Below are positions 1 through 48,201 of a DNA stretch of 64,000 nucleotides, one piece after another; the stretch's first letter is position 1, and each line of letters starts with the position of its first letter. Position numbers and translations under genes: made by a program. The DNA is from Betaproteobacteria bacterium (GTDB lineage Bacteria; Pseudomonadota; Gammaproteobacteria; Burkholderiales; SG8-39). The notes beneath the pieces are model-generated. The model ran no database searches, was not told the DNA's origin, and saw nothing but the letters and a program-made list of their open reading frames with translations. The DNA lies in NCBI GenBank assembly GCA_947476535.1, contig CANJRC010000003.1, positions 28,034 through 92,033 of the forward strand, written 5' to 3'.

Positions 1-210
1 ATCCTGTCCATTACTGCAGGAGACCGGCCCGGCCTTCTGTATGGAATTTCCCGGACATTGGGTGAATATCATCTGAATCTTCATACGGCAAAAATTGCAA
101 CGCTGGGAGATCGTGCCGAAGACACCTTTCTGGTCTCGGGCGATGCGCTGCATCACCCGCAAACGGTCTTGTTGCTCGAGCAAGCCCTGCTGAAGGTTCT
201 ACAGGCCTGA
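1..210 (+). CDS. glnD: [Protein-PII] uridylyltransferase GlnD, C-terminal ACT domain (5' truncated by window edge)
   Basis: Frame 1 from base 1 reads ILSITAGDRPGLLYGISRTLGEYHLNLHTAKIATLGDRAEDTFLVSGDAL...LLKVLQA*, a typical C-terminal ACT domain of GlnD. Confidence 0.85.
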   Translation: MLSITAGDRPGLLYGISRTLGEYHLNLHTAKIATLGDRAEDTFLVSGDALHHPQTVLLLEQALLKVLQA

Positions 211-215
211 ATACG

Positions 216-746
216 TTATTCGCTCTCCGCGACACGAGTCGGGGTTAGCTCGTCGACAAATCCGAACCGTTGCAAGTCGCGAATCCGCGTCGGGTAAAGA
301 ATTCCATCCAGATGATCGCATTCGTGTTGCACAACCCGAGCGTGAAAGTCGGTCACGTCGCGGCAGATGCCATTTCCGTTCGCATCATACCCTTCATAAC
401 GCAGCCGCCTCCATCGGGAAACTTCACCCCTCAAGCCAGGAACGGACAGGCAACCTTCCCATCCTGAATCCTGCTCCAACCCCATTGGCGTGAGTACGGG
501 ATTGATCAGCACCGTCTCTGGTATTTCCCCTGCATCGGGGTATCGGGAGTTGAACTTGAATCCAAATACGACGACCCGTAAGCCGACCCCGATTTGTGGA
601 GCAGCAAGGCCGGCGCCATTCAAGTGCAGCATGGTGTCGAGCAAATCTCTCACCAAAGCATCCAGCTCAGAAGTGCCAAATTGAGCGATTGGGCTGGAAG
701 TTTCCAGCAGTCTGGGATCCCCCATTTTCAGGACATTTCGAATCAT
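216..746 (-). CDS. def: Peptide deformylase
   Basis: GAGLAAPQIG, EGCLSVPG and QHECDHLDG motifs. Confidence 0.95.
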   Translation of the reverse strand: MIRNVLKMGDPRLLETSSPIAQFGTSELDALVRDLLDTMLHLNGAGLAAPQIGVGLRVVVFGFKFNSRYPDAGEIPETVLINPVLTPMGLEQDSGWEGCLSVPGLRGEVSRWRRLRYEGYDANGNGICRDVTDFHARVVQHECDHLDGILYPTRIRDLQRFGFVDELTPTRVAESE

Positions 747-1493
747 TGCGAAACAAGTTCCTTCAAAATCGCCTCGACTTTACACATGGCCATGTCTGCC
801 ACGACAGCCAAATCAGCGAACAGTATTCCCTCCGCGCTCTCGCCTCTTCCAGCAGCGCTGTTTACCACCACTGCCAGCATGGCATATTCGAGGCCACATT
901 CGCGAGCCAGCACAGCCTCTGGCATTCCCGTCATTCCAACCACATTTCCTCCGTCCCTCTCAATTCGGTTAATTTCAGCCGCGGTCTCAAGACGAGGGCC
1001 CTGGGTTGCAGCATAAACTCCCCCGTCTGCCACCGGTAAATTGCATCGTTTTGCCGCCCGCAAGAGTTCGTCGCGGAGAGTATTGGAAAAGGGGTTCGTA
1101 AAGTCAATGTGCTTGACGGGCACGCCCTCTCCAAAAAAAGTGCTCGCGCGTCCCCACGTGTAGTCGATGATTTGCTCTGGAACAAGCAGCGTTCCCGGCT
1201 CATAGTAGGCTGGAATACCACCTACGGACGCGACGGAAACCAACTTGGTGGCACCAATGTCCTTCAATGCCCAAATGTTTGCGCGGTAGTTTATTAGGTG
1301 AGGCGCGATCGTGTGACCGACACCATGACGAGGAATGAAAAAGGCGCGATGCTTGCCGATGAGGACGCTACTGATTGGACCCGACGTTTTTCCAAAGGGC
1401 GTATCCGGCAAGTGCTGAGCTTCAGTTGCGACTCCCTTCAACGCCTGAAGTCCACTCCCACCAATAATCGCGTAGTCGCCGGAAGTAGATATG

Positions 1494-1504
<11 letters not shown>
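743..1504 (-). CDS. S-methyl-5'-thioadenosine / S-methyl-5'-thioinosine phosphorylase
   Basis: IIGGSGL...[26 protein letters not shown] and [31 protein letters not shown] family. Confidence 0.88.
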
Positions 1505-4438
<2,934 letters not shown>

Positions 4439-5551
4439 TCACGAAAATAGGCGGAGTGCCAGCGACTCGCCAGCGGAAAACCCGTGTTCCTGCATCTTTC
4501 TATAGGTTTCATCGAGCTGCACTCGTATTGATGACAATGCTTTCTCTCCAATGGCCAGATGATTGTCATCAACGACTTGCCCCCCCACTTCCGCTGCAAA
4601 TTTCACAGCGGTTCCAAACAGGTTAGACACCAGCTCAGGAGAGGGCTTTGCACGCGGAACATCGACCTCAAAGGTGACGGCTCTGGTGCTCAATGTTTCC
4701 AAGGTAGCCTCCGAGAACGCCACGTCGCCCAGGTTGGTCAGGCAATATTGTGAGCGTGCCGACTCATCACGCTTGTGAAACCCGCCATCGGCTCCCAACT
4801 CCATACCGGCAGTTGCAGCTGCTGCAAGTAGCTGCCTTCCAGAGAAAGGTCTGTCTGTTGAGATGACGTTCAATCCCACTTTGATATCCACATCCGTAGA
4901 GAACTGGTCAAGATCCTTGGCCCGTATTAGAGCTTCGGAAATCCCCTCTTCCGAGGCTAGCGCATCCAATCGCACGGCCAGTCCACGCATTGCCCCGTCA
5001 AATCGAGCTAGTTGGGCTGCATCGATACAGCCTCTGCGATCCACCAATTGCACACAACCTCGAATGATTCTGCAGATGTCACCATGCTCGATGCTTCGCC
5101 ACGCACTCGATTCCGAGTCGAACATGTCCACATGAACCCATTTATTGAAATCGGATAGCAATTTGACAGCAGTCTCGATAACTTTGCTGCTGTCCGTTTC
5201 CGATTGCAAATACAAGGTCACGCAATAATCGATGGGCGTGATTGAAGTGGGCACCTCCATCCGAGGTTGGCGCTCCGCTTCACTTTCGGCTTCGCGTGAC
5301 AAGCCAGGTCCCGGTTCCTCATATTGAGGCTCGATGCGCGCGGCTCCTGCCGCTGTGGTTACAGCGACGTTGTGATCGGCGGGGGGCTCGCCTTGCAAGG
5401 GGCGCACATCAACCAGTACATCGTCATGCTTTGGCGCGAAGCTGCGCTCAGCGGATTTTTGGTATCTTTTTTCTTGCCACTTGTTGTAGAGAAAAACCGT
5501 CACAATAATTACCGCACCCAGCGCGAGGAGTGCGGTTTGGAGGTCGCTCAT
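4439..5551 (-). CDS. zipA: ZipA-like cell division protein
   Basis: N-terminal TM helix and C-terminal ZipA-like domain; 4-nt overlap with smc and next to ligA, the usual smc-zipA-ligA order. Confidence 0.82.
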   Translation of the reverse strand: MSDLQTALLALGAVIIVTVFLYNKWQEKRYQKSAERSFAPKHDDVLVDVRPLQGEPPADHNVAVTTAAGAARIEPQYEEPGPGLSREAESEAERQPRMEVPTSITPIDYCVTLYLQSETDSSKVIETAVKLLSDFNKWVHVDMFDSESSAWRSIEHGDICRIIRGCVQLVDRRGCIDAAQLARFDGAMRGLAVRLDALASEEGISEALIRAKDLDQFSTDVDIKVGLNVISTDRPFSGRQLLAAAATAGMELGADGGFHKRDESARSQYCLTNLGDVAFSEATLETLSTRAVTFEVDVPRAKPSPELVSNLFGTAVKFAAEVGGQVVDDNHLAIGEKALSSIRVQLDETYRKMQEHGFSAGESLALRLFS

Positions 5552-8500
5552 GCCGCAACTGGTTCCCGTAGCTGCAAAGCTTCATCGATATCAACTGCGA
5601 CCACACGTGATACTCCTTGCTCTTGCATCGTGACGCCAACAAGGTGCGACGCCATTTCCATAGTGAGCTTGTTGTGGCTTATGTAGAGAAACTGTGTGCT
5701 CTGCGACATCTTCTTCACCAACTCACAGAATCGGCCGGTATTGGCATCATCCAAGGGCGCATCTACTTCGTCGAGGAGGCAGAACGGAGCGGGATTGAGC
5801 TGAAAGAACGAGAACACGAGGGATATCGCGGTCATGGCCTTTTCTCCCCCTGACAGAAGGTGGATGGTAGAGTTTTTCTTTCCTGGGGGACGCGCCACGA
5901 CTTGCACGCCAGAGTCAAGAATCTCCTCCCCCGTCATGACGAGGCGGGCCTCCCCCCCTCCAAACAGCAACGGGAACAACTTCCCGAACTGTTCGTTTAC
6001 CGCGTCGAAAGTCTGCTGCATCAGTTCGCGCGTCTCACGGTCGATGCGACGGATTGCATTTTCAAGCGTATCAAGTGCCGAGGAAAGGTCATTCGCCTGG
6101 GAGTCGAGGAAGGCCTTTCGTTCAGTACTTGTCTCCAGCTCATCCAAAGCTGCCATATTGATTGCGCCCAAGGCAGCAATTTCCGAAGTCAGGCGCGCGA
6201 TCTCCGCCTGTATTGGCCCTGCTTTCTGCTTTTCCGGGACAGACTGCAACAGTTGCTGAATGGTTGCATCGTCAAGACCGGCCTCTTCAAGAAATGCGGA
6301 AAATTGCTGGACGTTAATTCGTGCCGCCTGCTCCTTGAGTCTAAGTTCCGCCAGTCGGTCGCGCAACGGCTCCAATTTCTGATCCTCGACTACTCGTCCC
6401 TCTTCGCTGGCGCGAAGCTGGGATGCCGCGAACTCCTGACGATTTCGGCTTTCGCCAAGAACCTGCTCCCGCAATAAGCGACTCTCTAGGGCGACCTGGA
6501 GAAACGAGTGCAATTCAGTGTCGTCAAGCCCGAGTAAGTCTTTTGAAATCTTTTCAATATTTTGTTGGGCCGAGAGCAACTGCTCCGAGACATTCTCTAT
6601 GGAGCGCTGGACTTCATCGATCTTGGCCCGCGATTCTTTCTCTGAAAACCCCGCGTCTTGTGCCTCACGTTCCGCCAGTGTCAATACCTGGCGCTGCCTC
6701 GCAAGCGCGCTCTCCGCGTCACCCAGTACTCCCTTGGTCTGCTCTACATGGACTCGCCCGGCAGAGAGCGCTTGCGACAACGACTCCAGCTTCTCGGTGA
6801 TTGCCTCGCCGCTGGCGGCCTCGGCCTCAGAGACCGATTTCAGCTCCGAACGTTCTCTTCCAATTTGATAAATGCGTGAATCGATTCTTTCCTTTTCCTG
6901 GGTCGCCTTCAGCAGTTGAACTTGCTTCTCATGAATCAGGCGGGACAATCCTGCAATATCTGTTCGCAAGGATGCCAGGCTCTCCGTATGCTCGGACATC
7001 TGTTGCTTGAGACTGGCCACTCGAGACTGTGAGAGATTGACTTCGTCTTGCTGAAGCTGGACCTCCCTCTGCAAGACCTCGATATCGCGTTGGCGCGCAA
7101 GCATTCCGGAGTCGGGGGCGTCAGGGGCGCAAAAAGAAATTGCAAACTTACTAAACTGGTGTCCATCGCGATTGACCAGAACCACCCCGGTAGGCAGTTG
7201 GGCGCGCGTTTCGACGCCCGGGACTCCATCCACTGCGTAGTAAGAGTGCAACCAATCATTCAGTGCGGGTTCAACGAGGGGGTCTGTTATGGTTATCAAG
7301 TCGCAGAGCGGTCGCAGCCCAGGAAAATATGCCGTCGCGCCAGACGTTCCGGCACAGAACAATGTCAGGGTAGACGGCGGGGAAAACCCTGCCATTGCCT
7401 GAAGGCTTTCCGCATCGTTTGCTTTCAGCGCATGTAGTCGATCGCGCAATACGGCTTCGACAGCGGACTCCCATCCGCTCTCCACTTGCAGGCCCTGCCA
7501 GAGTCGCGAAGACTTGTCCAACCTGTGCTCATTAATCCACCCTTGAATCGCCCCGTTGTTGTCGAGGCGTTGCTGGACTTGTTGTAGTACATCCAATTTC
7601 GCCGTTTGCGCAGCCAGACCTTGCTGTAGCGATTGGAGTTGGTCCATTGAAACCTGCAGTTGGACATCCAACTCCATGCGAATGGCTTCGAGCTCAGTCA
7701 GCCTTTGCTGTTTTTCCAGCTCAGTTTCGCGGCTCCTTCCAATTTCGGCTTCTGCCTGCGCGATCGCCCCGTTGTCAGGCGCATTCAGCTCATCTTGTTC
7801 CCGGCTCAGACGCTGGTCGCGTTCCAGTAGTCCCTGAAGTACTTTTCCCGAATGAGCAAGGTGGGTCTGTTCCAAGCGATAGGCGTGTTCACTCGCCGTA
7901 AATGCATCGCGTGCGGCTGCAGACTCTGCTTGTGCCGATTTGAATGCCTGTTCAACCTCAGGAAATCTTGCATGCTCTTCCTGGGCGCGAGCCCGTGCGG
8001 CATCTCCGCGCGCTTTCATCTCCTCCAGACGTCTGGACCAAAGTTGCTTTGCTTCCTCAAGTTCACTGGACCGCTTGGTATTTATCGCGAACTGCGCAGA
8101 ATACTGGGCAAGATCAGACTCAAGTCTTTGGCGCAACTCGCTGACGTGCCGAATTTCGCCTTCCAATCGAGCGACTTCGGAGTTGGTCGCAAAGAGTTCT
8201 CCTTGCGCGACGGTCAACGCATCCCCCGCTGCATAATGCTCGTCACGGGCGGACTCCAACGTGCTCTCTATCTCGCGAATCCTTGCCGTCACTTCCTCCA
8301 GTTGCACTCCCAACCGGTCGATTTCACGAACATGACGCTGGGCCTCCACGTCAGACTCTTCGCGCTTCAATGCCCAGAGCAAGTGTTGCTTCTGCTGCCT
8401 GAGCGCCGACAGCTCATTGAATTGCCTAGCGACTTCCGCCTGTCGCTCAAGTTTTTCTATCTGCGTGCCAAGCTCTTCCCGAATGTCGCTCACTCGCGCC

Positions 8501-9072
8501 AGGTTCTCTCGCGTGTCCGCCAGTCGGTTTTCCGTTTCACGGCGGCGCTCCTTATATTTTGAAACGCCGGCGGCTTCTTCGAGAAACACCCGCAGCTCCT
8601 CGGGTTTCGCCTCAATGATCCTGGAAATCATCCCCTGCTCGATGATTGCATACGCCCTGGGCCCCAACCCAGTCCCGAGAAAAATGTCGTGGATGTCCTT
8701 GCGACGAACCTGTGTATTGTTGATCAGATACGAAGAGTCGCCGTCTCGTGTCAGAACACGTTTCACTGAAATCTCAGCGTACTGTGACCACTGCCCTGCG
8801 GCCCTCCCAAGACTGTTGTCAAAAATCAATTCGACACTCGCCCTCGCAACGGGCTTGCGCAGCGTGGATCCGTTGAATATAACGTCTTGCATCGAATCAC
8901 CGCGAAGTGCGGACGCCCTTGATTCCCCAAGCACCCACCGAACCGCATCTATGATGTTGGACTTGCCGCAACCGTTAGGGCCTACGATTCCGACTAGGTC
9001 TCCTGGCACGGTAAGATTCGTCGGGTCCACGAAGGACTTGAAACCTGCGAGTTTTATTTGATTTAAGCGCAC
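5548..9072 (-). CDS. smc: Chromosome segregation protein SMC
   Basis: N-terminal GPNGCGKSNIIDAVRWVLGE Walker A, long coiled coils, C-terminal LLSGGEKAMTAISLVFS and LLDEVDAPLDDANT. Confidence 0.97.
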   Translation of the reverse strand: MRLNQIKLAGFKSFVDPTNLTVPGDLVGIVGPNGCGKSNIIDAVRWVLGESRASALRGDSMQDVIFNGSTLRKPVARASVELIFDNSLGRAAGQWSQYAEISVKRVLTRDGDSSYLINNTQVRRKDIHDIFLGTGLGPRAYAIIEQGMISRIIEAKPEELRVFLEEAAGVSKYKERRRETENRLADTRENLARVSDIREELGTQIEKLERQAEVARQFNELSALRQQKQHLLWALKREESDVEAQRHVREIDRLGVQLEEVTARIREIESTLESARDEHYAAGDALTVAQGELFATNSEVARLEGEIRHVSELRQRLESDLAQYSAQFAINTKRSSELEEAKQLWSRRLEEMKARGDAARARAQEEHARFPEVEQAFKSAQAESAAARDAFTASEHAYRLEQTHLAHSGKVLQGLLERDQRLSREQDELNAPDNGAIAQAEAEIGRSRETELEKQQRLTELEAIRMELDVQLQVSMDQLQSLQQGLAAQTAKLDVLQQVQQRLDNNGAIQGWINEHRLDKSSRLWQGLQVESGWESAVEAVLRDRLHALKANDAESLQAMAGFSPPSTLTLFCAGTSGATAYFPGLRPLCDLITITDPLVEPALNDWLHSYYAVDGVPGVETRAQLPTGVVLVNRDGHQFSKFAISFCAPDAPDSGMLARQRDIEVLQREVQLQQDEVNLSQSRVASLKQQMSEHTESLASLRTDIAGLSRLIHEKQVQLLKATQEKERIDSRIYQIGRERSELKSVSEAEAASGEAITEKLESLSQALSAGRVHVEQTKGVLGDAESALARQRQVLTLAEREAQDAGFSEKESRAKIDEVQRSIENVSEQLLSAQQNIEKISKDLLGLDDTELHSFLQVALESRLLREQVLGESRNRQEFAASQLRASEEGRVVEDQKLEPLRDRLAELRLKEQAARINVQQFSAFLEEAGLDDATIQQLLQSVPEKQKAGPIQAEIARLTSEIAALGAINMAALDELETSTERKAFLDSQANDLSSALDTLENAIRRIDRETRELMQQTFDAVNEQFGKLFPLLFGGGEARLVMTGEEILDSGVQVVARPPGKKNSTIHLLSGGEKAMTAISLVFSFFQLNPAPFCLLDEVDAPLDDANTGRFCELVKKMSQSTQFLYISHNKLTMEMASHLVGVTMQEQGVSRVVAVDIDEALQLREPVAA

Positions 9073-9252
9073 AAATCTCTAATTCAGAATGACCAGGACG
9101 GGCCTTGGGGGGGGATTGCCGAGTCGGGGATCGCATCCACAATGGAACATGACAAACTCAGAATATAATACCACCGACGATCAAGATTTAATTTCGACAC
9201 ACATTCTGCTAGCCTGCAATTCATCCCTCACGAATGCCTGAAAATTGATGAT

Positions 9253-9669
9253 TTGATGCTGAAAAAACCGATAAAACGCCTAGCGACATTCCCGAATCCG
9301 TGCCCGAGCAGGGACTACGTGATCCGGATGCGGATCCCGGAGTTTACGTGCCTATGCCCAATGACGGGACAGCCCGACTTTGCGGAGTTGCGCCTTGACT
9401 ACGTGGCAAATCTGCAATGCCTCGAATTGAAGTCCTTAAAGCAATATGTCTGGTCTTACAGAAATGAGGGCGCATTCCACGAGGCGGTCACGAACCGAAT
9501 TCTCGACGACTTGGTCACAGCCATACTCCCGCGTTATGCACGGATTACTGCGAGGTTTTTTGTGCGAGGAGGAATATTTACCACAGTAATTGCCGAGCAT
9601 CGCAAGCGAGGATGGAAAGGTAGGCCACCCGAGCTGGAGGCGGCCATTGCCCCCCCTTCCATCTATTGA
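9253..9669 (+). CDS. queF: NADPH-dependent 7-cyano-7-deazaguanine (preQ0) reductase, short form
   Basis: [20 protein letters not shown]...[22 protein letters not shown]. Confidence 0.93.
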
Positions 9670-9773
9670 CCAATGCGCGTGCGCCAGAAAAGTATCAGAA
9701 TGATGCCAACCCGTAGCTCGTTACTGGGGACCACGCGGACCAGCTTGGCGCTTGCCCTTAGATTCCTCATCGC

Positions 9774-10970
9774 ATGAACCCGGACCTGTCACTGCTGCAG
9801 CCGTACCCCTTTGAAAGGATGCGAAACCTTTTCAACGGAGTCGTTCCTTCATCCTCGCACCGTCCAATACAGATGCATATCGGGGAGCCCAAGCACCCGA
9901 CGCCAGAGTTGCTACTGAAGGCCGTTCGCGATAGCACCACAGGTTTGGCGCGGTATCCTGCCACTTCGGGATCCGAGGATCTGCGATCTGCAATTCGCGA
10001 TTGGCTTGTACGGCGCCACGGCCTTGCGGACATCGATCCGACAACCGAGATATTACCGGTCAACGGCTCACGTGAGGCATTGTTTGCCATTGCCCAAGTG
10101 GTAGTCCGCAGGAGCGTAAATCCTCCTCCGATCGTCGTATGCCCGAACCCCTTCTATCAGATCTATGAAGGAGCTGCGATTCTTGCAGGCGCTGTTCCGC
10201 ATTTCGTGAATATGACTGCGGCGAATGATTTCGCCGGGGATTACGAGGCTATACCGGAGAAGATCTGGCAAGCGACGCAATTGCTGTATGTCTGCTCGCC
10301 CGCCAACCCTACCGGGCGTGTCACCACGTCAAAACAGTGGGAAGCACTCTTTAGACTGTCGGACCAGTACAACTTTGTTATAGCGTCCGACGAGTGTTAC
10401 TCGGAGTTGTACTTTGATGGAAATGACCCGCCAATCGGTGCCCTGGAGGTGGCCAGTAACATTGGCCGACTCAATTTTGAGCGGCTCATAGTCTTTTCCA
10501 GCCTCTCGAAGCGTTCGAATGTTCCAGGAATGCGCTCCGGATTTGTCGCCGGCGACAAACGCATACTCAAGGATTTCCTCCTGTACCGGACCTATCACGG
10601 TAGTGCCATGAGCCCGACATTTCAAGTTGCCAGTGCCGTTGCATGGCGCGACGAGTCTCATGTGAGGCTGAATCGGCAGCAGTATTCGGGAAAATTCGCC
10701 TGTGTCGTCCCTTTGCTGCAGGGCGCCCTGCCCATCAGCATGCCGGACGCAAGTTTTTACCTCTGGATCAAGACCCCCATCGAGGATACTGAGTTCGCTA
10801 GAGAGCTATACCGTCGCTATAATCTGACCGTCTTGCCAGGCAGCTTCTTGGGTCGGGAGCATGATGGGGAAAACCCAGGCGCGGGATACGTCCGCATGGC
10901 ATTGGTTGCGACACTTGAAGAATGCGTGGAGGCTGCTCGACGCTTTGCCGAATTCGCAAAATTTGCGTAA
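9774..10970 (+). CDS. dapC: Succinyldiaminopimelate transaminase
   Basis: PLP class I/II aminotransferase ([37 protein letters not shown]) directly upstream of dapD. Confidence 0.88.
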
Positions 10971-11011
10971 CTCTTGACCAACGAAAGAAGATCTTGAACT
11001 CTTTGAATAGC

Positions 11012-11821
11012 ATGAAGAACACTATTGAAGCGGGCTGGGAGGCAAGGAGCACCGTCGGGCCCAATAATTCGCCGGCACCTTTGCGAGAAGCCGTTGCCGA
11101 AGTGCTGGCTAAATTAGATGTCGGTGCACTGCGCGTTGCAGAAAAAATCAACGGCGCATGGGTAACGCATGAGTGGATCAAGAAGGCAGTCCTGCTGTCG
11201 TTTCGTCTCAAAGACAATGAAGTCATGCCTGGCGGGGAGACGCAATATTTTGACAAGGTACCGACCAAATTCAGCAATTACTCGAAAGATGATTTTGCGA
11301 ATGGTGGGTTTCGGGTTGTTCCTCCGGCAATGGCACGCTTCGGGGCATTTATCGCGAAAAATGTCGTGCTTATGCCTTCATATGTGAATATCGGAGCCTA
11401 TGTCGATGAAGGAACGATGGTAGACACTTGGGCAACGGTCGGCTCCTGCGCGCAGATTGGGCGCAATGTTCATCTGTCGGGCGGAGTTGGCATAGGCGGC
11501 GTCCTGGAGCCTCTTCAGGCCAATCCAACCATCATTGAAGATAACTGCTTCATCGGGGCGCGTTCCGAAATCGTGGAAGGCGTGATCGTGGAAGAGAATT
11601 CAGTGCTTTCAATGGGTGTATTCATCGGGCAAAGCACAAAGATATTCGACCGTTCCACCGGCGCGATTCACTATGGTCGTGTTCCCTCGGGCTCCGTAGT
11701 CGTTCCAGGGTCCTTGCCGTCAAAAGACGGAACGTACAGCCTTGCCTGTGCAGTAATCGTAAAGCGCGTTGACGCGCAAACGCGCAGTAAAACGAGCATT
11801 AACGACTTGCTGCGGGACTGA
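11012..11821 (+). CDS. dapD: 2,3,4,5-tetrahydropyridine-2,6-dicarboxylate N-succinyltransferase
   Basis: [43 protein letters not shown] left-handed beta-helix; start chosen at [10 protein letters not shown]. Confidence 0.95.
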
Positions 11822-11846
11822 AAGAGACTGCACCAGGGAGGTTGAC

Positions 11847-13016
11847 ATGTCGGCGATGAAGCGCCTGTTTCAGCTGATGGCCGAGAAGAAAGCCTCGGAT
11901 ATTTTCATTTCGGTTGCTGCCCCCATCAATATCAAGATCAACGGGGTAGCCATACCAGTGAATCAGCAGGTAATGGACAGTACGACAATCACTACGCTGT
12001 TGTACGAAGTGATCACCGATAAGCAGAAAAAAGAGTACGAGGACACCCTGGAACTGAACACTGCATACACCCTACCTGGGGTAGGCAGCTTTCGGATCAG
12101 CGCTTTCCGGCAGAAGGGATCCCCTGCCATCGTGGTGCGCTATATCCCAGGGACGATACCGCCGTTTGATTCACTGAATCTGCCTTCGATCCTGAAAGAA
12201 ATCATCATGGAGAAGCGCGGCCTCATCCTGATGGTTGGTGCTACAGGATCAGGTAAGTCGACATCGCTATCGGCCATGCTTGACTACCGCAACGAACAAA
12301 AGCCCGGCCACATACTTACGCTCGAAGACCCCGTTGAGTTCATTTTCCAGAATAAGAAGTGCATCGTAAACCAGAGGGAAGTCGGAACAGATACGCTCGA
12401 CTTCAAGGTCGCACTCAAAAATGCCCTCCGCCAGGCCCCTGATTGCATTCTTATCGGGGAAATTCGCGACAAGGATACGATGGCATCAGCGATTGCGTAT
12501 GCGCAGTCTGGGCACTTGTGCCTGGCAACGCTTCACGCTAACAACAGTTACCACGCAATGAATCGGATCATCAGTTTCTACCCGCTCGAAAACCGGCCTG
12601 CATTGCTGGAAGACCTTTCGGCCACGCTAAAGTCCGTCATCTCTCAGCGCCTCGTCAGAAACAAGCAAGGCGGAAGAAGCGCCGCCGTCGAGGTCATGCT
12701 GAATACACGACATATGGCCGAATTGATTGCGAAAGGCGAGATCAATGAAATGAAGGAAGCAATGGAGAAAAGCCTGTCTCCGGGCTCCCAAACCTTTGAG
12801 CAAGCGCTATTCAAAATGCTTCAAGAAGGCCTGGTGACCCAGGAAGAGGCTCTGACAAATGCAGACTCCGCAACGAATCTCCTATGGCTTATCAACAACA
12901 CGGAGGCCGGCCTGTCCGCCCAGAATCAAGAGGGCGCGGAGAAAAAACCACCCCCGCCACCGGCCGGAGGGACCTCTTTCAGCGAGTTCAAGCTCGACAT
13001 GACTGGTACGTCCTGA
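11847..13016 (+). CDS. pilU: PilT/PilU-type twitching motility ATPase, PilU-like
   Basis: VGATGSGKSTSLSAMLDYRN Walker A, LIGEIRDKDTM, SGHLCLATLHANN; start at MSAMKRLFQLMAEKKASDIFIS. Confidence 0.87.
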   Translation: MSAMKRLFQLMAEKKASDIFISVAAPINIKINGVAIPVNQQVMDSTTITTLLYEVITDKQKKEYEDTLELNTAYTLPGVGSFRISAFRQKGSPAIVVRYIPGTIPPFDSLNLPSILKEIIMEKRGLILMVGATGSGKSTSLSAMLDYRNEQKPGHILTLEDPVEFIFQNKKCIVNQREVGTDTLDFKVALKNALRQAPDCILIGEIRDKDTMASAIAYAQSGHLCLATLHANNSYHAMNRIISFYPLENRPALLEDLSATLKSVISQRLVRNKQGGRSAAVEVMLNTRHMAELIAKGEINEMKEAMEKSLSPGSQTFEQALFKMLQEGLVTQEEALTNADSATNLLWLINNTEAGLSAQNQEGAEKKPPPPPAGGTSFSEFKLDMTGTS

Positions 13017-13139
13017 ATATCACTGTGCGGAAGTGTCCTATCTGCCACGCTAGTAGCATCGGCTAGCCACGCGATAGTCCGCAAAAGCTGCATGTGCTCG
13101 GATGCCCGGGCCGAAGATGAATGGGCTGGGCGATCAGAA

Positions 13140-14090
13140 ATGAAAAATCCAAGACGTGCGTCAAAACAATCAGTGGAACGTCAAACTCTGTCGGCCTGGG
13201 CGGCTCGTTCTGCCCGACGTTTGGCTGCAGCAAAGGTGCATTTTGGGCATGGGGCGCCAGATGCCGTGTCAGAAGCGGTCTGGATTGTTTCCCATGCCTG
13301 CAGGCTTTCGCCAATGCATATTAAAAAGCATCATTCAAGACTCCTCACTTCTAGCCAGATCGATCGCGCAGATCGCATCCTGGATGCCCGCATAAAAAGC
13401 AGGACCCCGCTTGCATATCTGCTGAATGAGGCCTGGCTCGGTCGGCACCGCTTCTTTGTAGATCAGCGCGTGATCATTCCGCGCTCATTCATCGCGGAAT
13501 TCATTGAAACTGGACTTGCCCAGTGGCTCCCCGCTAGGCGCAAGAAGCTTCGTGCGCTGGACTTGTGCACCGGCTCAGGTTGTTTGGCCATCGTGTTGGC
13601 CAAGACCTTTCGCGGGATGCATGTGGATGCAGTCGATGTTTCCGGTCCCGCACTGGAGGTCGCTCACGTCAATATCAAGCGTCACCATCTGCAGTCAAGG
13701 ACTCGAGCAATCCTTAGCGACCTGCTCACGGGGATACCAGAGTCGGTTCGATACGACCTGATCGTCTCGAATCCACCCTATGTCAGAACGTCATCAATGC
13801 GCGCACTGCCAATGGAGTATCGTCACGAGCCGACGCTGGCACTTGCAGGCGGTACCGATGGCCTGGAACTGGTGTCGCGCATACTCGATAGCGCTCGACA
13901 ATATCTCACCCCGAAGGGCGTGCTGGTCTTGGAAGTTGGTCACAACAAGAAGGCAATGGAAAAGACTTTTCCCCGCCTGCCCATCCTCTGGCTTGACACC
14001 CTGAGCAGTGAAGGAATGCTGGCGCTCATTGAGGCCAAGGACATCCCTGAACGGTCGAAACCTCGCGGCCAGAAGCGCGGAAAGACCTAA
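13140..14090 (+). CDS. prmB: 50S ribosomal protein L3 N(5)-glutamine methyltransferase
   Basis: RALDLCTGSGCLAIVLAKTF and DLIVSNPPYV (NPPY) motifs; start at MKNPRRASK. Confidence 0.9.
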   Translation: MKNPRRASKQSVERQTLSAWAARSARRLAAAKVHFGHGAPDAVSEAVWIVSHACRLSPMHIKKHHSRLLTSSQIDRADRILDARIKSRTPLAYLLNEAWLGRHRFFVDQRVIIPRSFIAEFIETGLAQWLPARRKKLRALDLCTGSGCLAIVLAKTFRGMHVDAVDVSGPALEVAHVNIKRHHLQSRTRAILSDLLTGIPESVRYDLIVSNPPYVRTSSMRALPMEYRHEPTLALAGGTDGLELVSRILDSARQYLTPKGVLVLEVGHNKKAMEKTFPRLPILWLDTLSSEGMLALIEAKDIPERSKPRGQKRGKT

Positions 14091-15105
14091 GGAAACACTG
14101 AATAAGTCTGCGAATCGGAATACCAATGATGACGCTGAGGCGTTAAGCGTGAATCAGTTGACCGAACGGGATAATAGCGACGATGAAGCCAATGACACAG
14201 GCTGCGACGAAGGGATTCGAGGTGCACGGTAGAGACACCGCGCAAGGCGGGGTTTCTTGCGCGCATGGAGGCGCTGGTTCCTTGGGCTGAGTTCTGTACG
14301 TTGATCGAACCGTACTACCCGAAAGCCGGCGGCGGTCGCCCGCCCACAGGGCATGGGGCGGATGCTGCGGATGTACTGCATTGCCATCTGATTCAACCTG
14401 TCTGACGAGCCCTGCGAGGATGCGCTCTACGATATCGCTGCATTTCGTGATTTCTGTGGAATTGACCTGGGCTGCGGCAAGCGCGACCCGGAAATGCACC
14501 AGCGCAAGAAGGGCAACCAATGGCACTTTGGCATAAAGCTGCACATCGGCGCGGATGGCCAGGGCGGCCTGATCCACAGCGCGAGCGTCACCGCCGGCAA
14601 CATGCAGAACAGCCAAGAGTTGCCCAACCTGCTGCATGGTGGTGAGACCCGGCTCTACGGCGACAGTGCCTACCGGGGAGAGAAGCAGCGCAAACAGCTC
14701 AAGGGTATCGCGCCCAGCGCGAAGGACTACACCAACAAGTGGGCCTACCGGAACCGGTCCTTGACCGATGCGGACAAAGAACCCAACCGGCGCTAGTCGA
14801 GTGTGCGTTCCAAGGTTGAGCACCTGTTCCTGGCGCTCAAGCGCATCTGGGGCTTCACCAAGGTCCGCTATCGGGGGCTGGCCAAGAATTCCAACCACGC
14901 GTTCGCGATGCTCGCTCTGATCAATCTGAGCAAATGGGGAAGGCCACTCACAGGACAGGTGCATCCAGCGTGATCGAAATACCCGGGAAGAGCCCACTGC
15001 CCCTCAAAAAACCATCTTCAGATCGAAGAAAAATTCGTTCAATTCACAATTTCAACTGAGTCGCGTTCATCTGTCGCTCGCGACAGCTACTTGATCAGCG
15101 ATTCC
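14091..15105. mobile_element. Degenerate IS5-family insertion sequence
   Basis: Left end GGAAACACTGAATAAGTCTGCG resembles IS5-type ends. A partially matching inverted copy (ACTTGATCAGCGATTCC) lies at about 15089-15105. Both ends are flanked by TAA (14088-14090 and 15106-15108). Exact right boundary uncertain. Confidence 0.6.
14230..14973 (+). pseudogene. IS5-family transposase remnant (frameshift, nonsense codons, internal deletion)
   Basis: FLARMEALVPWAEFCTLIEPYYPKAGGGRPP, then a frame change to RMLRMYCIAI*FNLSDEPCEDALYDIAAFRDFCGIDLG, then a deletion to KRDPEMHQRKKGNQWHFGIKLHIGADGQGG...GDSAYRG; in-frame TAG at 14794-14796; C-terminal SKVEHLFLALKRIWGFTKVRYRGLAKNSNHAFAMLALINL. Confidence 0.9.
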
Positions 15106-43378: not shown

Positions 43379-44254
43379 TCAGGATTTCCTGAACTGCCTG
43401 AAGTTCGGCTTGCGCTTCTCCATGAAGGCGCTCGCCCCTTCGGTCATCTCCGGTCCGCCCGCAAGCCGGATCAGCACTTGCTTGGCATGCTCGTTGGCCG
43501 ACTGCAGCATGTCCCACCAGACGTTTGAGTTGATCTTGGTGATCTCGAGATAGGCCGGGCTGCGATCGAGCAGTTCTTCCGCCCACGCGGTCACCTCCTT
43601 CTTGAGTTCCTTCAGTGGCACCACCTTGTTCACCCAGCCCATGTCGTAGGCCTGCTGGGCCGTATAGAGGCGGTTCAGGTAGCAGACCTCCCGCGCCCGC
43701 TTCTCGCCGATGGTCATGGCGAGCAGGTTGTTGGCGCCGAAGATGGGGGAGCTGCCGATGCGTGGGCCGGTCTGGCCGAACTTGGCGTTGTCGGCGGCGA
43801 TGGCCAGGTCACAGGCGATCACCAGCTCGTTGCCTCCACCGACGGCATAGCCATTGACCGCGCCGATGATGGGCTGCGGGATGCGGCGCATGGTGTTGAT
43901 GAGGTCCTCAGCATGGTTGAAGAGCTTGCGGCCCATGCCGATGTCGAAGTTGGCGAGGTCCTTGAGGAAGCCGCCCGAGCAAAAGGCCTTGTCGCCGGCC
44001 CCGGTGAGCACCACCACGCCGATCCCGCCGTCTTCTCCGCACTCCTTGAACGCGAGATTGAGCTCACGAAAGGAGTTGGCATCCACCGCGTTGTAGCGAT
44101 CCGGCCGGTTGAGCGTGATCCAGGCAATCTGGCCCTTTTTCTCGACGATGACGTCGCTGTACTTGCTTTTTGCGACCTTCGATTTTCCCGTTGATGTCTT
44201 TTTCGGTGCGGCTCGTTCTGCATCAACCTTCTTTGCCTTTTCCTTCTTTGCCAT
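43379..44254 (-). CDS. Enoyl-CoA hydratase/isomerase family protein, MenB/BadI-like, with basic N-terminal extension
   Basis: IAWITLNRPDRYNAVDANSFREL, GDKAFCSGGFLKDL, GAVNGYAVGGGNELVIACDLAIAADNAKFGQTGPRIGS, C-terminal EKRKPNFRQF. Confidence 0.85.
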   Translation of the reverse strand: MAKKEKAKKVDAERAAPKKTSTGKSKVAKSKYSDVIVEKKGQIAWITLNRPDRYNAVDANSFRELNLAFKECGEDGGIGVVVLTGAGDKAFCSGGFLKDLANFDIGMGRKLFNHAEDLINTMRRIPQPIIGAVNGYAVGGGNELVIACDLAIAADNAKFGQTGPRIGSSPIFGANNLLAMTIGEKRAREVCYLNRLYTAQQAYDMGWVNKVVPLKELKKEVTAWAEELLDRSPAYLEITKINSNVWWDMLQSANEHAKQVLIRLAGGPEMTEGASAFMEKRKPNFRQFRKS

Positions 44255-44366
44255 GGTGTTCTCCCTGTTGAGTGATTGTTCGACTTGACGCTTTGACGCA
44301 ATGCCCCCCATGCCACGGCACTTTCTTCTCGATCAATGCCGGCAATGTCCTTGGGGAAGTACCTGT

Positions 44367-45479
44367 TCAACCATCCGAGATGATTCCCTGCAGTCGATCC
44401 ATGGCATCACTGTACTCGGTCAGCATGTCCGTGATGACCTGCCGCACCGTCGTCTCAGCGGACATCGAATGCACGATCTGCCCGACGGGCGGGCTCATGA
44501 AATCCTTGGCGTGGCCGCGCGCAATGCGAAGGCGGGCCTCCATGGTTGCGATCGTTTGCAACGGCATCGGCAGTACGGGAGGCGCCCCTGGCTGCTCCCA
44601 CGCCTCGGTCAGCTTGCTGCGCAGCACGCGGCACTGCTTTCCGGTACGGCTCAGGGTCTGGACGGCGTCCTCCGCCCTCGCCGCGAACAGCGCCCGCTTC
44701 TCCTCGGGCAGCAGGTCGCTTTCCCTTGTCCCCAGCCAGATGGACCCGCACCAGATACCACTCGCCCCCATGGCCAGTGCCGCCGCCATCTGCCTGCCGC
44801 TGCCGATGCCGCCCGCCGCGAGCACGGGCGTGGGAGAAACGGCATCCACGACTTGCGGCCAGAGAATCATGGAACTGATGTTCCCGGTATGCCCGCCCGC
44901 CTCGGCGCCCTGGGCCACGATGACGTCCACGCCCGCCTCGCGCTGTTTGCGCGCGTGCTCGACCCTGCCGACCAGCGCGCCCACACGGATACCCAGCGCA
45001 TGCACCCGCTCCACCTGCTCGCGTGAGGGCACCCCGAGCGCATTCACCACCATCTTGATCGGGTGCTTGAGCGCGACATCGAGCAACGCTTCACTCTCTT
45101 CGCGCGTCATGTTGACCTTCGCAATCTCCGCCTCGATCATTGCATCCGCTTCGGTGCGCGGAAGCGGCGGCACATGCGCCGCATCAAGCAGCTCGCGCAG
45201 GAAGCGCACCTGCTGTTGCGGAACGGAATGGACGTCGAGTTTTACGCTGCCGAGGTCCGCGTGGCGGTTGGGCATCAGGAGGTCCACGCCATAGGGTTTG
45301 CCGTCGACGTGATCGTCGATCCAGCGCAACTCCTCCTCGAGCTGATCCTTGGTGAAGTAGCCGGCGCCCAGGCAGCCGAATCCCCCAGCACGCGATACCG
45401 CCGCAACCACGTCCCTGCAGTGGGAAAAGGCGAATATCGGCAGCGCTATGTCCAGCATTTCGGTGACTGCAGTTTTCAT
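44367..45479 (-). CDS. Nitronate monooxygenase family flavoprotein
   Basis: LPIFAFSHCRDVVAAVSRAGGFGCLGAGYFT, DVIVAQGAEAGGHTGNISSM, PVLAAGGIGSGRQMAAALAMGASGIWCGS. Confidence 0.88.
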   Translation of the reverse strand: MKTAVTEMLDIALPIFAFSHCRDVVAAVSRAGGFGCLGAGYFTKDQLEEELRWIDDHVDGKPYGVDLLMPNRHADLGSVKLDVHSVPQQQVRFLRELLDAAHVPPLPRTEADAMIEAEIAKVNMTREESEALLDVALKHPIKMVVNALGVPSREQVERVHALGIRVGALVGRVEHARKQREAGVDVIVAQGAEAGGHTGNISSMILWPQVVDAVSPTPVLAAGGIGSGRQMAAALAMGASGIWCGSIWLGTRESDLLPEEKRALFAARAEDAVQTLSRTGKQCRVLRSKLTEAWEQPGAPPVLPMPLQTIATMEARLRIARGHAKDFMSPPVGQIVHSMSAETTVRQVITDMLTEYSDAMDRLQGIISDG

Positions 45480-45519: not shown

Positions 45520-46725
45520 CTAGGCGCCGTGCTGCCCGAGAATGGTGATCGAGCACACGTTCTGGTTCGGAAAGCCGCCCAGGTTGTGTACCAATCCGCG
45601 CACCGGATTCTTGGCGCGCTGGCGCGCGCCGGCGCGCCCGAGCAGTTGGAGATACAGCTCATAGGTCATGCGCAGGCCGGACGCCCCGATGGGGTGCCCG
45701 AAGCACTTCAATCCGCCGTCGATCTGGCACGGCAGCTTGCCATCGCGATCGTAGAACCCGTCCATGATATCGCGCACCGCCCCGCCCTCGGGCGAGAGCT
45801 GCAGGTCCTCCATGGTCACCAGCTCGGTGATGGAAAAACAGTCGTGCGCCTCGACCAGTGAAATCTCGTCGCGCGGACGCTTCACGCCGGCCTCCGCGTA
45901 AGCGCGCCCGGCGGCGATGCGCGCGGTCATGAAGTACGAGCCGTCCCAGGAATTGTGCTGCGCCTCGGTGCCGTTGGACACCGACAGCTGCATGGCCTTG
46001 ATCGAGACGAGGTCCTTCTTTCCCAAGGAGCGGGCAATCTCCGGAGTAGTGACGATAGCGCATGCGGCCCCATCGGACACCCCGCAGCAGTCGAACAGCC
46101 CCAGCGGTTCGGACACCATGGGCGCATTGAGCACCTGATCTTCGGTCACCTTGTTGCGCAGGTGCGCCTTGGGGTTGAGGCTGGCGTTGTCATGGCTCTT
46201 GACTGAAATGTGCGCCATGGCCCGCTTGAGGTCCTCCTTGCCCACGCCGTGCTTGGCGCGGTAGGCCGAGGCGATCTGCGCAAAGTTTCCCGGGGCGGAA
46301 ACGTTGGCCCAGTACATGGAATTGAGCGCACCGCGACTGCGCTGCGGCAGCCCCCCGTAGCCGGTGTCCTTGAGCTTTTCCACGCCCAGCGCCAGCGCAA
46401 TGTCGCAGGCGCCGCTGGCCACCGCGTAGGTCGCGCCGCGCAAGGCCTCCGAGCCACTGGCGCAGAAGTTCTCCACCCGTGTCACGGGGATGTAGGGCAG
46501 GCGCAGCGCCATGGCGAGCGGCACACCCGACTTGCCGACGTGGATGTCCTCGAAGGCCGTGGACAGCCAGGCCGCTTCGATCTGCTTGGTCTCGATGCCG
46601 GCGTCCGACAGCGCCTCCGTATAGGCCTCGACCATGAGATCCTCGGCGTTAGACTCCCAGCGCTCCCCGAACTTCGAGCACCCCATGCCGAGGATTGCTA
46701 CCTTGTCACGAATACCTGTTGCCAT
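45520..46725 (-). CDS. Thiolase family protein (SCP2/archaeal acetoacetyl-CoA thiolase type)
   Basis: RDKVAILGMGCSKFGERWE, RVENFCASGSEALRGA (nucleophile Cys), GGLKCFGHPIGASGLRM (catalytic His). Confidence 0.9.
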   Translation of the reverse strand: MATGIRDKVAILGMGCSKFGERWESNAEDLMVEAYTEALSDAGIETKQIEAAWLSTAFEDIHVGKSGVPLAMALRLPYIPVTRVENFCASGSEALRGATYAVASGACDIALALGVEKLKDTGYGGLPQRSRGALNSMYWANVSAPGNFAQIASAYRAKHGVGKEDLKRAMAHISVKSHDNASLNPKAHLRNKVTEDQVLNAPMVSEPLGLFDCCGVSDGAACAIVTTPEIARSLGKKDLVSIKAMQLSVSNGTEAQHNSWDGSYFMTARIAAGRAYAEAGVKRPRDEISLVEAHDCFSITELVTMEDLQLSPEGGAVRDIMDGFYDRDGKLPCQIDGGLKCFGHPIGASGLRMTYELYLQLLGRAGARQRAKNPVRGLVHNLGGFPNQNVCSITILGQHGA

Positions 46726-46743: not shown

Positions 46744-48201
46744 TCAGGCAGCAATCGCTGCAGAAACCGGCGCCGCTTTCCAGAAATAGCGCACGAAGCC
46801 GCGCTGCGAATCCACTTCCTTGATGCGAAACACCATGCGCATGGGCATGCCGACGTCCACCGCACCGACATCCACGTCGGTGAAATCGACCGTCATCCGC
46901 CCCCCCTCGTCGAACTGCACCATGCCGTAATGCGCCGGCGGATCCGGGCAATAGGTGAGCTGGTCCGCCGACCACGTCTGGATGCGCCCGTGAAAATCGG
47001 CGAACGGCTGATCCACCTGGCTGCCACTTGCGCCACACGCCGGGTTGACGCAGATCGCCGCCTTGGGAAACTGGATGGTTCCGCAACGCTCGCAGCGCCC
47101 GCCGACCAGCCCCAGGATCATGTCGCGGTTGCGGTACAGCGTGGTGAGCGGCGTCTGCTTGTCGGCCTCGGCGCGCAGGCCGCGCTCCAGTTTCACCAAG
47201 TCATTGAAGGCGAGAAAGCGCGAATAGCTCGCCAACTCCTTGCGCGCAGCCAGCGATGAAGCCACGGTGTCGGGTCGCGCCTTGTCGATACCCGCTGTCA
47301 CCTCGAACAACAGCGCATCGACCCCCTGCCCGAAGCCGATCACGAGGATGCGCTCGCCCGGCTTGGCGGTTTCGAGCACCTGCGCGAGCATCAGCAGCGC
47401 GTGCGCAGCGCCGGTGTCACCGCAAACCCCGTCCAGGTTGCCGCGCACGCGATCATCGGCAATGCCGGCCTTCTTGGCCACGGCCTGCGGCACGCGCGAC
47501 AGCGTGCAAGGCATGCAGAAGTGGTGAATGGCATCGGCCGAGACCCCGGCATCGACCAGCACGCCGGCAATCACTGGCGGAACGAGCTTGAGGTAACCCT
47601 CCTCGCGAATCCAGCGCTCCTCCCAGCCGTAGTCGAACTCGCGCCCCTGTGCACGGTAATGATCGACGAAATCCACCGAGGTCGAGCGCTGCGCCACGAG
47701 GCGGGCGATGCCGTCGCCTTCCTCGACTAGGACGGCGACAGCCGCATCGCCCGAGGTCATTTCCTGTACGCTGCCCGCCGGGCTGTGTCGCTTCTCGCCG
47801 GCAAGCACCAGCACTCTTTGCTTGCGCGCCAATGCGGTATCGAACGCGGCCAGCAGCGCCGTGGTGCCAGCGCGCTGCGAGGCGCCCACGTCCATGGTGC
47901 GCAATGCACCCGCAGCACCCAAGGCCTCGGCCACGATACCTGCGTTCTGGCGCACGGCGAACGGCGCCGTGGTGCTGGCAAGATAGATGGCACCCGGGCC
48001 GGTCCCCGCCGTCTTGCCCAGCACGCCCCGCGCCACCTCCACCGCCATGGTGACGACGTCCTCGTCCCAATTGGCGACTGCACGCTCGCCTTTCCCGTAG
48101 GGCTTCAGCCCCGGATTGAACCAGGCGTTGGCCTCGGTCATGAGCTTGCGTGATAGTCTCAGGCGCGGTATGTACGCGCCGATTGCAGATATTCCCGCCA
48201 T
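46744..48201 (-). CDS. HMG-CoA synthase-like (thiolase-superfamily) protein fused to C-terminal DUF35 Zn-ribbon/OB-fold domain
   Basis: N-terminal GAYIPRLRLSRKLM...WDEDVVTMAVEVARGVL resembles archaeal HMGS; C-terminal CERCGTIQFPKAAICVNPAC Zn ribbon and OB-fold region; RBS GGAGGGG before ATG at 48201. Confidence 0.85.
   Translation of the reverse strand: MAGISAIGAYIPRLRLSRKLMTEANAWFNPGLKPYGKGERAVANWDEDVVTMAVEVARGVLGKTAGTGPGAIYLASTTAPFAVRQNAGIVAEALGAAGALRTMDVGASQRAGTTALLAAFDTALARKQRVLVLAGEKRHSPAGSVQEMTSGDAAVAVLVEEGDGIARLVAQRSTSVDFVDHYRAQGREFDYGWEERWIREEGYLKLVPPVIAGVLVDAGVSADAIHHFCMPCTLSRVPQAVAKKAGIADDRVRGNLDGVCGDTGAAHALLMLAQVLETAKPGERILVIGFGQGVDALLFEVTAGIDKARPDTVASSLAARKELASYSRFLAFNDLVKLERGLRAEADKQTPLTTLYRNRDMILGLVGGRCERCGTIQFPKAAICVNPACGASGSQVDQPFADFHGRIQTWSADQLTYCPDPPAHYGMVQFDEGGRMTVDFTDVDVGAVDVGMPMRMVFRIKEVDSQRGFVRYFWKAAPVSAAIAA

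Follow-up and report, generated by a model that had tools for sequence, protein, structure and literature searches.

An HMG-CoA-synthase-like/DUF35 fusion with replaced catalytic residues as the probable non-catalytic partner of a neighbouring SCP2-type thiolase

The window analysed here, a stretch of 64,000 nucleotides from a betaproteobacterial assembly (GCA_947476535.1, contig CANJRC010000003.1), contains a same-strand run of genes in which a fusion of a 3-hydroxy-3-methylglutaryl-CoA synthase (HMGS)-like and a DUF35 part is followed by an SCP2-type thiolase, an FMN oxidoreductase and, as the last gene, a crotonase (Table 1). All four genes are common only to one other locus, the 94%-identical L027 of a betaproteobacterial MAG. 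The fusion may start at an ATG (48201; 485 aa) or at a GTG (48243; 499 aa), and we took the former because homologues begin at this ATG. An initial annotation made from the sequence had described the product as an HMGS-like/DUF35 fusion, a description with which the open reading frame and its NCBIfam, Pfam and Foldseek matches agree.

Table 1. Coordinates of the genes, domains and residues discussed in the text (positions within the window).
Feature	Coordinates	Strand	Basis and remarks
Pseudo-HMG-CoA-synthase/DUF35 fusion protein	46744..48201	minus	485 aa; ORF, Pfam, NCBIfam, AlphaFold2 (pLDDT 89.6, pTM 0.91)
HMGS-like (thiolase-fold) domain, residues 1-335	47197..48201	minus	PhlA and archaeal HMGS matches, Foldseek
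Thr77 at catalytic Glu position	47971..47973	minus	Alignment; T in 102/104 homologues
Gln109 at nucleophile (Cys) position	47875..47877	minus	Alignment; Q/L/R/M/S/P/A in 104 homologues, Cys never
Pro231 at catalytic His position	47509..47511	minus	phmmer alignment and homologues; initially given as Cys229, 47515-47517
Asp262 at Asn position of GNT motif	47416..47418	minus	Alignment; family mostly E or D
DUF35 rubredoxin-like zinc ribbon, residues 365-392 (C370, C373, C384, C389)	47026..47109	minus	PF12172
DUF35 OB-fold region, residues 393-480	46762..47025	minus	PF01796 matched at 419-459; 6esq_E alignment to residues 361-480
SCP2-type thiolase (NCBIfam PRK06157)	45520..46725	minus	18 bp downstream of fusion; Cys88, HDCF 294-297 and GHP with His344 intact
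FabK/nitronate-monooxygenase-like FMN oxidoreductase	44367..45479	minus	Pfam; same strand as fusion
MenB/BadI-like crotonase	43379..44311	minus	Last gene of same-strand run

Pfam recognises the ACP-synthase-III fold (its C-terminal part) and both halves of DUF35 in the fusion, the latter as zf-ChsH2 (PF12172, 26.7 bits versus 23.2) and OB_ChsH2_C (PF01796, 38.1 versus 27.1), each above the Pfam gathering score. The N-terminal half finds its best NCBIfam match among archaeal HMGS models (NF003274, E 6.7e-49) but misses their curated cut-offs (NF003274: 166.8 versus 244 bits; TIGR00748: 118.5 versus 353 bits), and since the match is significant yet scores below these cut-offs we regard this half as a homologue of HMGS rather than a member. 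Its best sequence matches among solved structures are PhlA proteins (9skh, 5m3k), followed by archaeal HMGS from 6esq; the DUF35 half resembles 6esq_E. A Foldseek comparison places the AlphaFold2 model nearest to PhlA, archaeal HMGS (6esq/6et9) and a MucABC subunit, all of which come from multicomponent complexes. The zinc ribbon (C370, C373, C384, C389) is present as first described, with each ligand conserved as Cys in 101 or more of the 104 homologues. Three relatives (L014, L017, L021) have lost most of these zinc-binding Cys residues and kept both the fusion and its thiolase partner, and so the role of DUF35 may vary.

Aligned without gaps to the HMGS of M. thermolithotrophicus (DLEFACKAGT against DVGASQRAGT), the fusion has Gln109 where the synthase has its catalytic Cys and Thr77 where it has the Glu of GSESHPY, in line with the initial annotation on both counts. 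For the catalytic His of VFHQP, that annotation had named Cys229, which is two residues off: the gapless phmmer alignment gives Pro231, and two relatives that retain the His, L108 (VHQPN) and L021 (VHEP), carry it in the Pro231 column, where 94 of the 104 homologues have Pro. In L108, from a haloarchaeal plasmid (Haladaptatus), VHQPN still occupies the His column though the Cys is lost. With the GNT Asn, too, exchanged (Asp262), all four catalytic positions of the synthase (Glu, Cys, His, Asn) are replaced. The AlphaFold2 model places Gln109 at the junction of strand 101-105 with helix 111-126, where thiolase-fold enzymes carry their nucleophile. As counter-evidence to look for, the initial annotation had pointed to a conserved active-site Cys or to homologues with an intact triad and HMGS activity; neither Cys109 nor Glu77 occurs in any of the 104 aligned homologues, nor do these share an alternative conserved Cys near the old active site.

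Residue counts given here rest on 104 aligned fusion proteins, and the family was surveyed in plasmid records, in 369 genomes of the class and by a scan of a genome collection with a closer-relative subset. The scan of the genome collection yielded at least 534 confirmed relatives; the family is spread over Pseudomonadota, Acidobacteriota, Rokuibacteriota, Actinomycetota and haloarchaea, and plasmids of Actinomycetota and haloarchaea also carry it. A search of PHROGs gave no match. Database labels of the relatives often read HMG-CoA synthase, 3-oxoacyl-ACP synthase III or OB-fold protein.

The thiolase gene accompanies the fusion with great regularity: wherever both ORFs are complete (92 loci), the fusion is followed on the same strand by a PRK06157-type thiolase, at a distance of no more than 130 bp in 89 cases. 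A complete thiolase ORF is missing from 11 loci, of which 10 stop at a contig edge and the exception (L020) shows a partial thiolase match with no annotated thiolase gene. Haloarchaea have the reverse order, thiolase then fusion, as on the plasmids L107-L109 where the fusion is kept with the thiolase upstream, and Halomarina has separate genes for the pseudo-HMGS, DUF35 and thiolase components. Cys88, HDCF and GHP of the thiolase are invariant (93/93 sequences), and the median identity to the window proteins is 74% for the thiolase versus 54% for the fusion, as expected if the thiolase carries the chemistry. Pairwise distances of fusion and thiolase correlate (r = 0.92, species history uncontrolled). 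The best PDB sequence match of the window thiolase is the thiolase of the archaeal thiolase/HMGS/DUF35 complex. A read-through AlphaFold2 model of fusion plus thiolase, in which the stop read as Gly makes an artificial linker, reached a pTM of 0.72 with the thiolase poorly modelled.

Among known systems, PhlABC (PDB 5m3k, 5mg5; relative 9skh) comes closest in that it, too, combines an HMGS-like subunit devoid of Cys and Glu, a DUF35 protein and a thiolase-fold subunit in which the Cys is retained. In PhlA, Gly115 takes the place of Cys and Cys83 that of Glu; the substrate is contacted only by PhlC, and PhlA and PhlB were judged necessary for the complex and not for acyl transfer (PMC6392133). 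PhlA had already been called inactive in the DUF35 literature, which also noted fusions of DUF35 with domains of the thiolase superfamily (PMC2954200). The window encodes the same set of components together, and the division of residues seems to match as well, the HMGS-like part being without its triad and the thiolase with its Cys and His. Differences are that PhlA and PhlB are separate proteins whereas the window has a single chain, that PhlA has Gly rather than Gln at the Cys position, and that PhlC works in antibiotic synthesis, where it moves acetyl groups onto phenols (a CoA-independent C-acylation), while the operon of the window looks catabolic. The archaeal thiolase/HMGS/DUF35 complex (6esq) has all three components in common with the window, its DUF35 chain 6esq_E being similar, but its components are separate chains and its HMGS, with Cys114 and Glu82 intact, functions as an active enzyme of the mevalonate pathway, whereas the window protein is without both and fused to DUF35. 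In MucABC (PDB 9vbo, 9vbt), an acyltransferase from Streptococcus, the KAS III-like subunit of a multicomponent enzyme is among the top fold matches and aligns a Glu with the catalytic Cys (9vbo_A), albeit at only ~20% identity. The steroid aldolases ChsH2-Ltp2 and Shy-Sal and the BbsAB thiolase pair a thiolase fold with a DUF35 part that shapes the substrate pocket (PMC12329534); they resemble the window in this and differ from it in having no HMGS-like domain. Where Sal has YDCY and Ltp2 YDHF, the window thiolase has HDCF, the SCP-2 thiolase type (PMC12329534).

The synthase residues are lost, a thiolase with intact residues is constantly present and the fold is like that of complex subunits. 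On this basis we consider it likely that the fusion is a non-catalytic partner, equivalent to PhlA and PhlB in one chain, of a putative complex with the adjacent catabolic SCP2-type thiolase. We read it so because PhlA is dead in PhlABC, because PhlA and PhlB are needed for assembly and because in MucABC, too, another residue takes the Cys position (Glu in 9vbo_A). The fusion would assemble with the thiolase encoded directly downstream; its DUF35 part would bind this thiolase and shape the acyl-CoA site, and a dimer of the dead synthase domain would close and support the complex. Chemistry would then reside wholly at Cys88, His294/Cys296 and His344 of the thiolase, the reaction presumably being a CoA-dependent cleavage of a beta-ketoacyl-CoA and, given the MenB/BadI-like and FabK-like genes, its substrate perhaps a ring-derived acyl-CoA. 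The family, to our minds, is a widespread and under-described fused form of the PhlABC-like type of complex.

The old active site may nonetheless still bind something, as Thr77 and Arg110 are strongly conserved; indeed Thr77, Asp104, Ser108, Arg110 and a DED motif (46-48) are near-invariant even though catalysis is lost. This raises the option of a pseudoenzyme whose dead site binds acyl-CoA or CoA, either as a CoA site shared with the thiolase or as an allosteric one, and the archaeal complex does have a CoA site common to thiolase and HMGS where the two meet (PMC12329534). However, these residues may be conserved for folding or for the interface alone, and PhlABC is without the corresponding CoA-binding residues (PMC6392133), so that we deem such a role possible but rather unlikely. 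We are equally hesitant about an extended form of this scenario in which the dead domain, having bound acyl-CoA or CoA, controls the passage of substrate to the thiolase by gating or channelling, which would make the family one of pseudoenzyme-regulated catabolic thiolases; here Thr77, Arg110 and DED may form the predicted site and a bulky residue may plug the old nucleophile position.

Position 109 also bears on a comparison drawn in the initial annotation, namely that with KS-Q domains, according to which the Gln109 domain would decarboxylate a malonyl- or carboxyacyl-CoA and pass the product on to the thiolase. Gln does occupy precisely the Cys position, and no other residue is as frequent there (83 of 104 homologues, and 76 of the 83 relatives with at least 50% identity). 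Its conservation, which had been proposed as a check, is incomplete, however: the remaining 21 homologues have Leu (9), Arg (6), Met (2), Ser (2), Pro (1) or Ala (1), and a quick tree has 8 changes between Gln and non-Gln, 7 of which are required by branches with good support. At least seven exchanges, for Leu, Arg or Met, are thus seen, once even inside Sneathiella, where one MAG has Arg and its sisters Gln. In terms of entropy, position 109 is moderately conserved (percentile 35 versus 6 to 8 for T77, D104 and R110). Swaps of Gln for Leu or Arg argue against a catalytic Gln, while a filler of a vacated pocket could well vary in this manner. The enolate-stabilising His and Asn, moreover, are replaced by Pro231 and Asp/Glu262, no PKS or ACP genes adjoin the fusion, its constant neighbour is a thiolase and the structural precedent is PhlA. 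With position 109 variable and His and Asn lost, we reject KS-Q-like decarboxylation as very improbable. That the fusion instead works as an HMG-CoA synthase, or as a thiolase domain whose active nucleophile has escaped recognition, is hardly credible despite clear HMGS homology and a relative annotated as HMG-CoA synthase, for which other activity such as thiolase was suggested (PMC7793797): the catalytic residues are all replaced with no conserved Cys nearby to stand in, both archaeal HMGS cut-offs are missed, and the host genome (87% complete) gave no match to HMG-CoA reductase and has IspG of the MEP pathway. The initial view that HMG-CoA is an unlikely product thus holds, and from its residues the fusion is predicted not to be a normal HMG-CoA synthase.

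Returning to the fusion as a non-catalytic thiolase partner, its neighbours at other loci include acyl-CoA dehydrogenases, CoA transferases, MaoC hydratases, SDRs and ring-hydroxylating dioxygenases, and the use of the pair therefore looks catabolic, with substrates that vary. The crotonase of the window has SSP where MenB has SFD (Asp position), and contig C61 carries a paralogue (65% identity) that also has SSP, beside two acyl-CoA ligases (L123); a substrate search by way of this paralogue and the ligases yielded no specific pathway.

A more defined setting is the edc estrogen cluster of Novosphingobium tardaugens, with an 'HMG-CoA synthase' (EGO55_13555) to which its authors could not assign a step (PMC7793797). 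The gene order around the fusion of Novosphingobium ES2-1 (L022; fusion at 7995-9398) is that of the published edc cluster, EGO55_13555 being matched by gene order only. As in the window, the L022 fusion is followed by a thiolase and a BadI-like crotonase, and a BadI-like hydrolase also adjoins in the edc cluster; L022 differs in that its fusion shares 34% identity with that of the window and carries Leu at position 109 (the Cys likewise gone), in an estrogen pathway. Reading these proteins as fused, non-catalytic thiolase partners would offer a testable answer for the unplaced 'HMG-CoA synthase' of estrogen degradation and would correct a misleading annotation in a family of at least 534 loci, in an arrangement that is widespread in bacteria and archaea and whose solved relatives show the same catalytic loss.

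At the other end of the window (1-15000), the core genes ligA, smc, zipA and dapD have a third-position GC of ~0.54-0.64 versus ~0.70-0.87 in nearly all of the remaining window, which may reflect a boundary in composition or a chimeric contig; the genome has a single copy of ligA.
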